From Magnetococcales bacterium (GTDB taxonomy: Bacteria; Pseudomonadota; Magnetococcia; Magnetococcales; Magnetaquicoccaceae): 64,000 nucleotides of DNA. This document shows, piece after piece, positions 53,920 to 59,175 of the stretch; positions within the stretch are counted from its first letter, which is position 1; every line of letters begins with the position of its first letter. Where the stretch lies: the NCBI GenBank assembly GCA_011089965.1, contig JAANAU010000002.1:1-64000 (forward strand), given 5' to 3'. The notes beneath the pieces are model-generated. The model was not told the origin of the DNA. It made no database searches and saw only the letters and a list, made by a program, of their open reading frames with translations. The position numbers and the translations under genes are program-made.

Positions 53920-55048
53920 GATCCATATCCTGTACTCTGCCGATTACGAACTTTACCTGGGCCGCATCACGACCTCTGAAGAGGAGGTGCTGATCACACC
54001 AACCAACGCCCTGCTCGCCACCTGTTCCGAACTGGACATCCCCCTGACCCTGTTTGCCGATGTGGCCTGTTTCTGGCGCTACCGGGAGTTGAACCGCCCA
54101 CACTTTCCAGATCAGGCCGAAGCGCAACTGGTCCAGGCCATCCGTCACGGCCATGATGTCCAGACCCATCTCCATCCCCATTGGCACCACACCCGGATCG
54201 AGGACCGAACGTTTCTGTTTGATCCCACCCACTATCTGGCTGGCACCTGCTCTTCAGACCCGCTGGAACGGGCAGCGTGGCTGCACGATTGGTTGCAACG
54301 CGCCCGGGAGTATTTGACCCGTCTCCTGATCCCGCACAACCCGCACTATCGCTGTCTGGCCTTTCGTGCCGGCGGCTATGGCCTGCAACCGGATACCGAA
54401 CAGATCCTGCACGCCTTGATACAAACCGGTTATCGCATCGACTCCAGCATCATCCCCGGGCTGCGTCTCTCCTCCCCCATGCAACAGATCGACTTCACCC
54501 GCGTTCCCAATCAAGCCAACTACTGGCTCTCGCCAACGCACGGGCTTGATCAGGCCGCGCCCCAGGGCGAGGGGTTATGGGAGATTCCCATTGCCGCCTG
54601 CCGCCTGCCCCCGGGAGTGCGCTGGCGGGTGCGTTTGCCCGAAGCCACACGTCAGGCACTGGCCATCCTCACGGCCCGTCCTCCCCTGCCAACACGCGGA
54701 ACCCCCTGCAACCAACCTTCGATCCACCCGGCCAGCCACTCTGCCGGACGCCTGAAACAGGCCTATTGGCGCTTCCGCGCCATTTTCGCCAACGACTTTC
54801 AACGACTGGAACTCGGAACCGATCCGGACGCCCTGCTCGCCTGCCTGCACCACTACCGATCCATCCACAATCAACAACAACCGATTTTTCTCTCCATGAA
54901 CATCCATCCCAAAGGAATCCACCCCCCCCATCTGACTGCTTTGGCCCGTTTTCACCGCACCCTGATGCAACCCCATCCGGGCCAGGTCCGGGCCATCACC
55001 TTTCAACAGGCCTGGGAGATCCTCCAGAACACCACCCCTGGTTCATGA
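53918..55048 (+). CDS. Polysaccharide deacetylase-like (NodB-fold) protein
   Basis: The 376-residue protein has the start IHILYSADYELYLGR, the metal-type motif RHGHDVQTHLHPHW (His-His pair), and CLAFRAGGYGL with an Arg/Gly loop typical of this group. Others in polysaccharide clusters (WalW-like) deacetylate or remodel surface glycans. No signal peptide is seen, so it acts in the cytoplasm or the start is wrong. It is convergent with the PilZ gene (6-base overlap). Confidence 0.75.
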   Translation: MIHILYSADYELYLGRITTSEEEVLITPTNALLATCSELDIPLTLFADVACFWRYRELNRPHFPDQAEAQLVQAIRHGHDVQTHLHPHWHHTRIEDRTFLFDPTHYLAGTCSSDPLERAAWLHDWLQRAREYLTRLLIPHNPHYRCLAFRAGGYGLQPDTEQILHALIQTGYRIDSSIIPGLRLSSPMQQIDFTRVPNQANYWLSPTHGLDQAAPQGEGLWEIPIAACRLPPGVRWRVRLPEATRQALAILTARPPLPTRGTPCNQPSIHPASHSAGRLKQAYWRFRAIFANDFQRLELGTDPDALLACLHHYRSIHNQQQPIFLSMNIHPKGIHPPHLTALARFHRTLMQPHPGQVRAITFQQAWEILQNTTPGS

Positions 55049-56749
55049 CGCGGCATTGGCCCGGCGTGCCAACTCGGCCCGTTGTCGTCGCACGATGTGA
55101 TTTTGCAGCTTCTCCCGGTGCAACGGAGACATATGCTCAAAAAAGCTGGCCACACGCCGTTTGCCCTGCTCGTCCGGCTCCTGAACCACCACCACCCGGC
55201 CATAGGCCCAAATCGGCTCCAACCCCTGCCCTTCCGGATCCACCCCAAGACGCACCTCGACCAGATCCCCCTTGTAAACATTGGTTTTCGAGGTACTCCA
55301 GGCCACACCCGTGGCGCTCAAATTCACGGTAAAGATCGCATCCCCTTCGGCAGTCAACTGTTTGGGCTGATCCACACCCGAAAAATCGATCATGACGATA
55401 GCGGCACGAAACCCTTCCAACGTCTCCACCAAAACCGAACCCGCAGCACGCAACTCACCGATCAATTTCCCGATCTGACGTTTGATCTCCTCCAGATCCT
55501 CTGCCAGCTTCTTGCCATGCAGCTTCTCCATGAGCGGATCCAACTGCTGCTGGGACATCCGCGTATCCAACTGATTCTGGATCAACGAGACCACCTGTGC
55601 CGCACTCATCGATCCGGGCGGTCGTTTGGTCATCTCCTTGATCAGACCGAAAAAGAGCATCAAACAACCTTGAAAATACTCCTCCTCGTTTTCCGAGTTG
55701 GCCTGTCGGAAACGACGATCCAAAAACTCCCGAAACCACACCACCGGACGCCGCGCCTTGACATTCAATTGCCGCAACAGTTTCAACTGCACATCCACCT
55801 CGGCCAACAGCCGCTTCTGACGCACCACGCGCTCGCGCAGAGGGAACTCCCGATGCGCATTAAAATAATTGACAGCGTGATCAAAACTCTTCTGGGTTAA
55901 CACCTTCCAGGCCAAGGGCAAGTTGTCGTTCAGGCGGAAGTCCTGACGCTTGGAGCCAACAGCCATCACAGGCATGGCGGCATCGGCTGCCTGGGCTGCC
56001 AAACGCGGATTGAGCGGACGGGAAGGGGGTGGTGCCGGAGGGGTCACATGGGCGGCAACCTGACGCGGATCTGCCTCCAGGATGGCCTTGGCTGCCATCA
56101 GGCGTTGATCCACTCTGGTCTGGTGTTCTTGAGATTCTGAATGGAGTGCGACCGGCAACACGGACGACGGTTCTGTAACAGTTGGGGATGAAGAGGATCC
56201 AGACGGTGCCGACAGTTTTTTTCCTTCTCGTTCGGACAGTTCCATGGTGGCAAAACGGCACTCCACGCGCACGGCTGTTCCGTTCCAGTCACGTCTCACC
56301 TGCTCGACACGGCAATAGGCATGGATCGGCAAGGGTTGATCCGGAAACGGGGCAAAGCGCATCTCCAGCAGATCGCCAGCGGTCAACTCCTCTTTGGTCA
56401 TCCAAAAAGTCAACCCGTCACCCGAGTCGTGCCAGGCAAACGGATGTGGTTTCAGGGCATCCTCTCCAGGTTGGGTCCGTTCCACCACCCGATTGAGTTT
56501 GGCATTGAAGGCTTCCAGCACCAGCAAACGCCAACGTCTGGCCAGAGTGCCGATCACCCCTTCGGAGTGATATTCCTGTTCGTGGGCCAGCAAGCGGCGG
56601 GTCTCTCCACCCAGACCCGGACGTACGGACAAGGGCAGTTGTTGTGCCCGACGCGCCCGGACAACGGCTTGCAGTTCCACGGCATTCAATTTCCGCCACC
56701 ACAAAGGCACTTCCGTAATCTGCGTTCTGTCCGTTGTACCTTCGGCCAT
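55043..56749 (-). CDS. Protein with two PilZ-like domains and a PilZ-associated N module
   Basis: The 568-residue cytoplasmic protein has a degenerate PilZ-like domain in residues about 110-205 (HDSGDGLTFWMTKEELTAGD). A Pro-rich linker follows, then a helical module from about 275 that starts FRLNDNLPLAWKVLTQKSFD and matches the N-terminus of the neighbouring PilZ protein. A second PilZ domain (about 465-560) has the motif NLSATGVAWS, but no RxxxR is visible before it. Cyclic di-GMP binding is therefore uncertain. It is the last gene of the prmA-to-PilZ run. CGGAGAA before the Met at 56749 supports this start. Confidence 0.85.
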   Translation of the reverse strand: MAEGTTDRTQITEVPLWWRKLNAVELQAVVRARRAQQLPLSVRPGLGGETRRLLAHEQEYHSEGVIGTLARRWRLLVLEAFNAKLNRVVERTQPGEDALKPHPFAWHDSGDGLTFWMTKEELTAGDLLEMRFAPFPDQPLPIHAYCRVEQVRRDWNGTAVRVECRFATMELSEREGKKLSAPSGSSSSPTVTEPSSVLPVALHSESQEHQTRVDQRLMAAKAILEADPRQVAAHVTPPAPPPSRPLNPRLAAQAADAAMPVMAVGSKRQDFRLNDNLPLAWKVLTQKSFDHAVNYFNAHREFPLRERVVRQKRLLAEVDVQLKLLRQLNVKARRPVVWFREFLDRRFRQANSENEEEYFQGCLMLFFGLIKEMTKRPPGSMSAAQVVSLIQNQLDTRMSQQQLDPLMEKLHGKKLAEDLEEIKRQIGKLIGELRAAGSVLVETLEGFRAAIVMIDFSGVDQPKQLTAEGDAIFTVNLSATGVAWSTSKTNVYKGDLVEVRLGVDPEGQGLEPIWAYGRVVVVQEPDEQGKRRVASFFEHMSPLHREKLQNHIVRRQRAELARRANAAS

Positions 56750-56811
56750 ACCGTTGTTCTCCGGGATACTTAGAATTTCCTCAGCCGAGAGTGAACAGAC
56801 CATCATCACGG

Positions 56812-57000
56812 GTCCAGGGGGGTAACCCCCCTGGTGGGGTCCAGGGGCAAAGCTCCTGGGACTTTTAATCTTTTAATTTTTTAATCTTTTAAACAAAAAT
56901 ATTAATAATTTTTATTTTTTTAAACATTCAAGGATTAAAACCCTGGAGGATGAATCCCCCAGCCCCCCCTCTTTTCTTTCAATCCTTCCAAACACACGCT
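56812..57000. mobile_element. Dispersed element, copy C2/B9, between two PilZ genes
   Basis: This copy starts with a hairpin around CAGGGGGGTAACCCCCCTG, then CCAGGGGCAAAGCTCCTGG, ACTTTTAATC repeats, an AT-rich core and CCCTGGAGGATGAATCCCCC. It ends CCAAACACACGCT. The right end touches the stop codon of the upstream PilZ gene (TGA complement at 57000-57002), as in copy B7. It separates two genes of one leftward run by 250 bases. Confidence 0.75.
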
Positions 57001-57593
57001 CAGTACCCCTTCTTGGCGCGCAACAACTCGGATTGACGCTGAAATATGTATTGAATCAACCGTTCCCGATCCGTATCGAGAATCGGTTCAAAACGACACG
57101 CCACCCGCGTCAACTCCTCCTGCATGTTCTCCACCACCATCATCACACGAGCAAAACAATCAATCACCGTCAACGAGTCCACAGAGAGCGCCAAACGAAT
57201 CTCCAATACATCCCCCTTGGACAATCCGGGATCCCGATCCAAAAACGAAATCCCACCACCACTCAGATTGACCGGAGTCAATACCATGGGCCGTTCGGTC
57301 TCCCCCGGATGAAACAACCGCAACAATAAATTCAACTTTTGATCCAACCGCACCAGCACCCGCGCCAACATCGGATCGCTTTGCTCCAAAAGCCGCAAGG
57401 CATCGGTGACATCCAAGGATGCCATGATCTGATGCACATCCAACCCCTGTTGGGGAAAAATCCGATGCTTTTCAAAATGGGCCACCACCTCCTGAAAACG
57501 AGCCTCATCAATCCGCCGCCAGGCCAACGGCAGAGAGTCATCCACCCGGACAAAGGCCCGCTGCTGTCCCTGCGCTGGAGTGGTTTGCGTCAT
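57000..57593 (-). CDS. PilZ-domain protein (YcgR/FlgZ-like layout)
   Basis: The 197-residue protein has an N-terminal helical part (AFVRVDDSLPLAWRRIDEARFQEVV...) and a C-terminal PilZ barrel with VNLSGGGISF (NxSxxG). The RxxxR half of the cyclic di-GMP motif is not visible where expected (HPGETERPMVLTP). Lying 60 bases after the MotB-like gene, it could act on that motor complex as YcgR does on MotA (inference). Its stop codon abuts the dispersed element. Confidence 0.9.
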   Translation of the reverse strand: MTQTTPAQGQQRAFVRVDDSLPLAWRRIDEARFQEVVAHFEKHRIFPQQGLDVHQIMASLDVTDALRLLEQSDPMLARVLVRLDQKLNLLLRLFHPGETERPMVLTPVNLSGGGISFLDRDPGLSKGDVLEIRLALSVDSLTVIDCFARVMMVVENMQEELTRVACRFEPILDTDRERLIQYIFQRQSELLRAKKGY

Positions 57594-57653: not shown

Positions 57654-58394
57654 TCAAGAGGCTGAAGCAACACGAATCTCACGGGTCAACAGAATATCGA
57701 TCCGGGCCGCACGTTTCTCTCCGGTACGACCAGACCCTTCACGGCCAACACGATGTCCAGAGGGCAGTACACGTTTGGGATCCAGACCTCCGGTTGTCAC
57801 GAAATAATCGGCCAGAGTCGCAGCCTCTGCCGCAGTCTGCGCCCATACCGACGTTATGGTCACAGCCGATGCAGAAGGCTTGTCTCCGGCATGACTGTCA
57901 ATGCGTATCATGTTGGGCAGACGCGCCAGCATCTGGGAGAGTTGTTTGAGCAACGGTTCCACTTCGGGCCGGATGGTGATCGCACCATCGACAAACAGGG
58001 CAGCCCGACTCAAACGGATCAAAAACCCTTCATCGACCGGTTTGACTTCCGGCGGATCCTGACCAGGTGCCATGCTGGCATGCATGACCGCCAGTTTCTC
58101 TTTGATCCGCACCAGTTCCACCGCCTGCTCGAACTCCATCAGTTCGGCCATCTTGTGGGTCGACTCTCCACCACCACGCCCCTCCCCGGCAAAAGAGGTG
58201 GACAAGGCCTCCAATCCAAAAGCCGTACGGATCGATGCCAGAGCCTCTGCCAGACGCAAACCGTCCAGACGGGACATGGTGAGCAACACAATGCACACGG
58301 CCAGCAGAATGATCAACATGTTGATCAATGGCAACTGCCATCTTGACATGCCGGATGGCGTCGTTTCGCTCTTGTCATCCGTCTGATCGATCAT
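57654..58394 (-). CDS. MotB/OmpA-like stator protein lacking the ion-carrying Asp
   Basis: The 246-residue protein has one membrane segment (WQLPLINMLIILLAVCIV) after a short cytoplasmic tail, a helical linker and a C-terminal OmpA-like domain (SRAALFVDGAITIRPEVEPLLKQL ... RAARIDILL). In MotB/PomB the membrane helix carries Asp in TFADLMTLL; here the aligned residue is Asn25 (AAC at 58320-58322). The peptidoglycan motif GHTD reads SHAG. It is encoded 22 bases after the MotA homologue. It may be a divergent, non-conducting or regulatory partner. Confidence 0.8.
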   Translation of the reverse strand: MIDQTDDKSETTPSGMSRWQLPLINMLIILLAVCIVLLTMSRLDGLRLAEALASIRTAFGLEALSTSFAGEGRGGGESTHKMAELMEFEQAVELVRIKEKLAVMHASMAPGQDPPEVKPVDEGFLIRLSRAALFVDGAITIRPEVEPLLKQLSQMLARLPNMIRIDSHAGDKPSASAVTITSVWAQTAAEAATLADYFVTTGGLDPKRVLPSGHRVGREGSGRTGEKRAARIDILLTREIRVASAS

Positions 58395-58416
58395 GCGCGT
58401 TTCTTTACAGGTGTGA

Positions 58417-59175
58417 TCATTTCTGATTGATTTCACGCGCTGTCGGCGGCAACACGGCAATCAGGGATTGCAACAACATGCGCGGATTCACCCCTTTCTG
58501 AATGCCGATCATGCCGTCGATGATCACCTGACGCACCATCTGCTCCTCCTGGCTGTAGGCCGTCAACTTGTAAGAGATCGGCAGTGCCACAAGATGGGCA
58601 ATGAAGATCCCGTAAAAAGTGCTGATCAACGCCATGGCCAACCCGGGTCCAATGGCAGTGGGATCGTCCAGATGGACCAACATCTGCACCAGACCGATCA
58701 GAGTGCCCAACAACCCGAAAGCCGGTGCTGCCTCGGCAATTCCCTCAAAAATCCCCACACCGTTGCGATGACGATCTTTTTGGTAGCTCAACTCTTTGGC
58801 GAGCAGTTTTTCCAGAAAGGCCGGATCTGCACCATCCACACAATGATTGATCGCCTTTTGCAAAAACTCATCCTCGGACTTGACCTTTTCCAAAGCCAGT
58901 ATCCCATCCTTGCGGGCAATATGGGACATCTCCACAATCTGGCTGATGATCGAGTGAATGTCATGGGATTTGATAAAAAAAGCCTTCATCAGGATACCGA
59001 ACACACCAAAGACCTCGCTCATTCTGTGCCGGATGAACAACGTGGCCATGGTGCCGCCAAACACGATCAGGATGCTGGGGATGTCCACGAACATGCCGAG
59101 CTGACCACCCATCAGGATGGCACCAAACATGAGGGCCAGTCCAAATATCAAACCGATGATCGTTGCAAAATCCAT
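58417..59175 (-). CDS. motA: MotA/PomA-type stator protein
   Basis: The 252-residue protein has four membrane spans. It starts MDFATIIGLIFGLALMFGAIL, like PomA/MotA of the short type. The cytoplasmic loop has RKDGILALEKVKSED (conserved Arg/Glu). The membrane prolines are present in APAFGLLGTLIGLV and HLVALPISYKL. It forms an ion-driven torque unit in flagellar motors together with MotB. It is followed by the MotB-like gene and two PilZ genes and preceded by mtnA. Confidence 0.92.
   Translation of the reverse strand: MDFATIIGLIFGLALMFGAILMGGQLGMFVDIPSILIVFGGTMATLFIRHRMSEVFGVFGILMKAFFIKSHDIHSIISQIVEMSHIARKDGILALEKVKSEDEFLQKAINHCVDGADPAFLEKLLAKELSYQKDRHRNGVGIFEGIAEAAPAFGLLGTLIGLVQMLVHLDDPTAIGPGLAMALISTFYGIFIAHLVALPISYKLTAYSQEEQMVRQVIIDGMIGIQKGVNPRMLLQSLIAVLPPTAREINQK

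Follow-up and report, generated by a model that had tools for sequence, protein, structure and literature searches.

Introduction

The membrane Asp of the flagellar stator is considered indispensable, and mutating it is the usual way to obtain a dead-stator control. Exchange of this residue for Asn halts motility in Borrelia, E. coli and Vibrio (PMC6663468, PMC6677748). Non-motile cells of the Borrelia MotB D24N mutant still assemble about 7 of their 16 stators, and in E. coli and Vibrio the motor tends to lose stators that have no ion flow (discussed in PMC6663468). In PomA, the residues T158, T185 and T186 line the Na+ site, and proton-type stators possess Ala at 158 and 185 (PMC10374538). 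Exchange of any of these Thr for Ala in Vibrio PomA (T158A, T185A or T186A) abolishes both motility and ion flow (PMC6677748). T185A also affects formation of the PomA-PomB complex. R88, K89, E96, D114 and R232 of PomA matter for motility and map to the contact with FliG (PMC10374538). PilZ proteins of the cyclic-di-GMP type are tied to stator control in the case of the brakes YcgR, MotI of B. subtilis, FlgZ of Pseudomonas and MotL of Shewanella. The MotA/ExbB-type five-plus-two superfamily also includes Zorya ZorAB, ExbBD, TolQR and AglRQS, and for TolR and AglQ/AglS a conserved Asp in the membrane has been described (PMC9389320). A search of open papers (subscription journals and preprints lay outside it) returned no prior description of a natural Asp-less stator of this kind.

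Here we describe a MotA/MotB-like pair of the Magnetococcales. It is encoded in the window, i.e., the whole stretch of 64,000 nucleotides that was analysed, which is contig C50 of a draft genome (3.66 Mb, 80 contigs, 98.9% complete). The pair resembles PomA/PomB (MotP/MotS) in its full-length MotA, its rotor-facing residues, the register of the transmembrane helix and a MotB/MotS-like periplasmic fold, but differs by the missing Asp, Ser in place of T185, a SHAG motif and two conserved PilZ partners. The same residue is removed in the laboratory mutants MotB D32N, PomB D24N and Borrelia MotB D24N, the last of which assembles partially and gives no torque. In contrast to these, the change described here is natural, recurrent, fixed and selected, and is accompanied by changes in the MotA pore. 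Unlike the known PilZ brakes, the PilZ proteins of the window have no YcgR match among family models and share an operon with a dedicated stator that lacks Asp. ExbB and TolQ scores of the pair are far below those of MotA/PomA, and a Zorya identity was rejected since neither protein has a PADLOC match to ZorA or ZorB.

Operon organization and the MotB-like subunit

The genes motA (58417..59175, 252 aa), motB (57654..58394, 246 aa, ATG at 58394), pilZ1 (57000..57593, 197 aa) and pilZ2 (55043..56809, at most 588 aa, with an uncertain start codon at about 56809) are arranged in tandem, all on the minus strand of the window. A terminator-like hairpin is located between pilZ1 and pilZ2 (56943..56962, minus strand); such hairpins are about as numerous in the region as expected by chance.

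The transmembrane helix of the MotB-like protein reads WQLPLINMLIILLAVCIVLLTM, and its codon 25 is AAC, encoding Asn (58320..58322, minus strand). A profile of 23 relatives matches solved PomB (8bri) with an E-value of 1e-49 and places Asn25 in the column of PomB Asp24, which corresponds to Asp32 of E. coli MotB; the assignment of Asn to the essential Asp site, made in the earlier note from the letters alone, is thereby borne out. Matches to Pfam models are weak and lie under the cut-off (MotB_plug 15.6 bits, OmpA 22.6 bits). Nevertheless, the protein has the architecture of a B subunit, with one transmembrane helix (about residues 20-40), a long helix (77-107) and a predicted OmpA-like periplasmic domain, whose best fold matches are structures of MotS and MotB (model pLDDT 76.5). 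What it lacks is the conserved ion-carrying Asp, and orthologues from ten genomes of the genus (including the source genome, all from separate assemblies) likewise have none, but instead Ser (seven), Thr (two) or Asn (one).

The peptidoglycan motif GHTD reads SHAG in the MotB-like protein, as had been noticed before, and other degraded variants are found within the genus. However, the loss of this motif is restricted to the source genus. Since Asp-less lineages elsewhere mostly retain GHTD or GYTD, and within the source genome itself the second stator, which bears Asp, carries GLPD, loss of the motif was rejected as a correlate of Asp loss, and the argument drawn from it is weak.

Rotor face and pore of the MotA-like subunit

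In the MotA alignment, a PomA row serves for residue numbering only; the residues themselves are from the genomes and papers. The MotA-like protein is a full-length A subunit of the MotA_ExbB family (102 bits to MotA_ExbB) and resembles PomA along its whole length, as seen with the PomA model (267 bits), Pfam and solved structures (E 1e-82 against the PomA chains of 8brd/8bri). All rotor-facing charges, R88, K89, E96, D114 and R232, are present. Across the operon MotAs, R88 is found in 36/36, K89 in 35/36 and E96 in 34/36, the other two having Asp, and D114 and R232 are invariant in 23.

The pore is less conserved. In the window MotA, T158 and T186 are retained and T185 is replaced by Ser, which leaves the sodium-type set incomplete. 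Thr185 is present in 13/13 MotAs of Asp-bearing operons vs 4/23 of Asp-less ones, Thr186 in 13/13 vs 16/23 (with Val, Ile, Phe or Ala in the other seven), and T158 is retained in 21/23 of the Asp-less operons. Of the sites that are fixed in all 13 Asp-bearing operons and altered in many that lack Asp, several cluster within or close to TM3 and TM4 (155, 167, 169, 179, 185, 186, 187 and 194). A position scan of the MotA pore in Asp-less operons yielded no compensating fixed charge. The TM4 His at MotA position 194 was rejected as a carrier, being His in only 5/23. Ser or Ala at 185 is by itself no proof of pore loss, as AT or ST at positions 185/186 would be compatible with a proton-type pore. 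Loss of T186 is a stronger sign of an altered pore, but concerns only 7/23. In an independent-pairs test of Asp loss vs T185/T186 change, about 3/3 pairs agreed, which are too few pairs for significance.

Distribution of the Asp loss and selection

Nearly all of the Magnetococcales genomes examined carry the arrangement motA-motB-pilZ1-pilZ2, with pilZ1 as operon partner throughout the order; in the sister genus the arrangement is pilZ1-motA-motB. A scan with a pilZ1 profile gave matches only in Magnetococcales, bar one weak match to a PilZ protein of Clostridia. Among the operon MotBs, 24 lack Asp vs 16 that bear it. Lineages f3, f5 (G032), f7, f8, f9, f11 and f12 retain the residue, as do G039 within f13 and G014 within the sister genus. 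Losses are seen in f1g1 (Asn, Ser or Thr), f2 (Asn), f4 (Ser and Gly, in a tandem pair of motBs) and f14 (Ala), and also in four sister-genus genomes (G011, G012, G013 and G017, with Gly) and six genomes of f13 (Ser or Gly). In total, the site is occupied by Ser in 10, Gly in 9, Asn in 2, Thr in 2 and Ala in 1 of the 24 Asp-less proteins.

On a maximum-likelihood tree of MotA and PilZ1, from which the T185/T186 columns were excluded, four changes of the Asp state are needed, and at least three of these are forced by well-supported branches. The tree therefore argues for a minimum of three losses within the operon, and probably for four or more. Since f2 and f4 are grouped by a long-branch join that may be false, the number could rise. 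Because an Asp-bearing species branches first both within the sister genus and within f13, the direction of change points to loss rather than gain. Identity in the MotB transmembrane helix falls from 0.88 among Asp-bearing to 0.35 among Asp-less proteins, compared with 0.46 to 0.32 in the linker helix and 0.41 and 0.53 to 0.37 and 0.40 in the two halves of the periplasmic domain. Constraint on MotB thus seems to have gone chiefly where the ion would pass.

All reading frames in Asp-less operons are intact. For close Asp-less pairs (n = 7), dN/dS is 0.15-0.30 for MotB, 0.03-0.11 for MotA and 0-0.2 for PilZ1; for Asp-bearing pairs it is 0.06-0.12 for MotB and 0.04-0.05 for MotA. Asp-less motB is relaxed yet under purifying selection, and MotA of these operons is constrained about as much as in Asp-bearing operons.

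Second stators and flagella

A canonical motAB pair elsewhere in the genome, proposed earlier as a check, was found at C36:8094-9580. It bears the Asp (PLWFISWADMATLLL) and lies on the same contig as flhA. Another Asp-bearing stator is present in 22/23 Asp-less genomes, the lone exception being a genome that is 76% complete. In the Asp-bearing genomes a separate other stator is present in only 3/15 and missing from 12/15 (Fisher p = 2e-6, descriptive only because the genomes are related). MotBs of the S2/S3 stators of the order keep the Asp in 48/48; five exceptions form a separate Asn-bearing orphan family. This distribution, together with the Asp kept in S2/S3, fits the idea that loss of ion conduction is permitted only if another stator supplies torque.

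Loss of flagella in the genus was rejected, since FlhA is present in 10/11 genomes (the one without it is 57% complete) and flagellins in 11/11. A search with FliG_N gave no match in four genomes, one of them rated 100% complete; flagellins are found in 4/4 of these and FlhA in 3/4. In the MotB of the second stator of the genus (L048 8061-8783, minus strand; C36 in the source genome), GHTD is replaced by GLPD, SDPD, GYPD or GFPD.

PilZ proteins

Both PilZ proteins carry the sequence motifs of cyclic-di-GMP receptors, RxxxR and (D/N)xSxxG, with a long spacing between the motifs. These read RAFVR and NLSGGG in PilZ1 and RQDFR and NLSATG in PilZ2. In 17 aligned PilZ1 members RxxxR is invariant and NxSxxG is kept in most, the Asn being replaced in three aligned members of the sister genus. 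The C-terminal half of PilZ2 resembles PilZ1, and both motifs are kept in all complete members. Confident matches of the two proteins are to PilZ-domain models only, with none to the YcgR family model. In PilZ1 (57000-57593), about 90 residues that look largely helical lie between RxxxR and NxSxxG, which is longer than in ordinary PilZ domains.

The earlier note took the PilZ neighbours as a sign of cyclic-di-GMP-linked control. The retained motifs make such a link of the Asp-less stator plausible. As evidence for a new regulatory role the linkage does not serve, because it is ancestral and also present where the Asp is kept. Because it predates the loss of Asp, the simplest scenario would be that an ancestral PilZ-regulated stator of the sodium type kept its regulated rotor contact and gave up ion flow.

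A stator-like unit probably without ion conduction

We strongly infer from the sequences that the Asp-less unit does not conduct ions. Both subunits are altered together at sites of the ion path and the rotor-facing surface is kept, which supports the suggestion in the earlier note of a non-conducting complex. Taken together with the recurrence of the Asp loss, retention under selection and the kept PilZ motifs, the reading that we favour, with slightly less than even confidence, is a PomA5B2-type stator-like complex with a normal MotA face that acts beside a second stator, probably as a brake or decoy linked to cyclic-di-GMP. Because conduction would be lost, the complex would give no torque, and torque for the flagellum would come from the second, Asp-bearing stator (C36). 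It is tempting to speculate that the Asp-less unit sits in stator positions around the rotor, or contends for them, and thereby acts as a source of drag, a place-holder or a damper of output, and that the two co-encoded PilZ proteins control it. This action as brake or decoy and its control by cyclic-di-GMP are a hypothesis. For docking that yields no torque, the stators of the Borrelia MotB D24N mutant are a precedent. Occupancy of the rotor is uncertain because non-conducting stators of E. coli and Vibrio tend to leave the motor, and in the source genus the degraded peptidoglycan motif may weaken anchoring. The broader proposal, which we hold a little more tentatively, is that Magnetococcales repeatedly turned a PilZ-linked sodium-type stator into a non-conducting 'dummy stator', a brake controlled by cyclic-di-GMP that shares the motor ring with the powered stator.

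Among the alternatives, the same sequence evidence for non-conduction and retention, with MotA as the most constrained subunit, could also describe a structural or assembly scaffold that does not brake, e.g., by stabilising the motor or recruiting the real stator. A pure scaffold, however, needs neither the kept rotor-facing charges nor the cyclic-di-GMP motifs, and we consider this explanation unlikely. Less probable still is that the complex left the flagellum for another envelope process in which MotB is an inert or passively turned axle, as in the earlier idea of a different process. Here, the divergence of both peptidoglycan motif and helix in the source genus, the tandem motB genes of some operons, which recall AglR/AglQ/AglS, and a separate orphan MotB with Asn, encoded immediately upstream of a chemoreceptor gene in sister-genus genomes, have to be weighed against the presence of FlhA or flagellins in all genomes of the genus and rotor-contact residues of MotA kept under strong purifying selection. 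Decay of the stator genes toward loss would account for the higher dN/dS of Asp-less MotB and the association with a second stator, but it is improbable given the intact frames, an operon that nearly all members retain, dN/dS values far below 1 in 7/7 Asp-less pairs and a MotA about as constrained as in Asp-bearing operons. That the unit still conducts, via another residue or a water path with Asn, Ser or Thr as weak ligands, is very improbable. The replacements are often polar (14 of 24) and T158 is widely kept; however, Gly or Ala occupies the site in ten proteins, His194 is rare, and the D-to-N exchange halts motility in three described bacteria. A conserved Asp elsewhere in the helix was looked for, and the scan of the 24 Asp-less MotBs revealed neither Asp nor Glu in any helix, so that the use of another residue, as once suggested, is not supported. 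A sequencing or assembly error at codon 25, conceivable in a draft of 80 contigs, is refuted by nine further species of the genus that also lack Asp in separate assemblies.

The mutation known from the dead-stator control arose naturally several times in one operon, with the product kept under selection and the partner pore changed to match. If the favoured reading is true, rotor contact was separated from ion flow in evolution, nature provides a test of stators as passive brakes, and a dedicated complex is added to the cyclic-di-GMP control of swimming.

Further stator-like genes in the Magnetococcales

In three operons one motA is followed by two tandem motB genes (L058 3065-4645, L064 5151-6770 and L056 5284-6700; genomes G034, G032 and G020, respectively). 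In the G020 operon both MotBs lack Asp. The tandem arrangement suggests mixed B dimers. In genus g6 of f5 (L057, L060 and L061), pilZ1-pilZ2 occur without adjoining motAB in G040, G021 and G036; the latter two genomes have an Asp-bearing motAB pair on a different contig.

A third MotB-like gene with Asp (FWISYADLMTALVML) is present on contig C56 of the source genome (81605-81703; L002 1444-2259, plus strand). It is ZorB-like (PADLOC ZorB1, 217 bits), and nearly all Magnetococcales genomes contain weak MotB_plug matches with this short shape. A second family of Asp-less MotBs was observed in the sister genus (L087 3753-4808, L088 1535-2527, L089 3598-4500, L090 3390-4328 and L091 3369-4259). 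Its members have Asn at the site (PPWTLTFANVALLLL) and 300-350 aa, with no MotA found within the stretch examined, and in L088 and L089 the gene lies directly upstream of a chemoreceptor gene with an MCP signalling domain.
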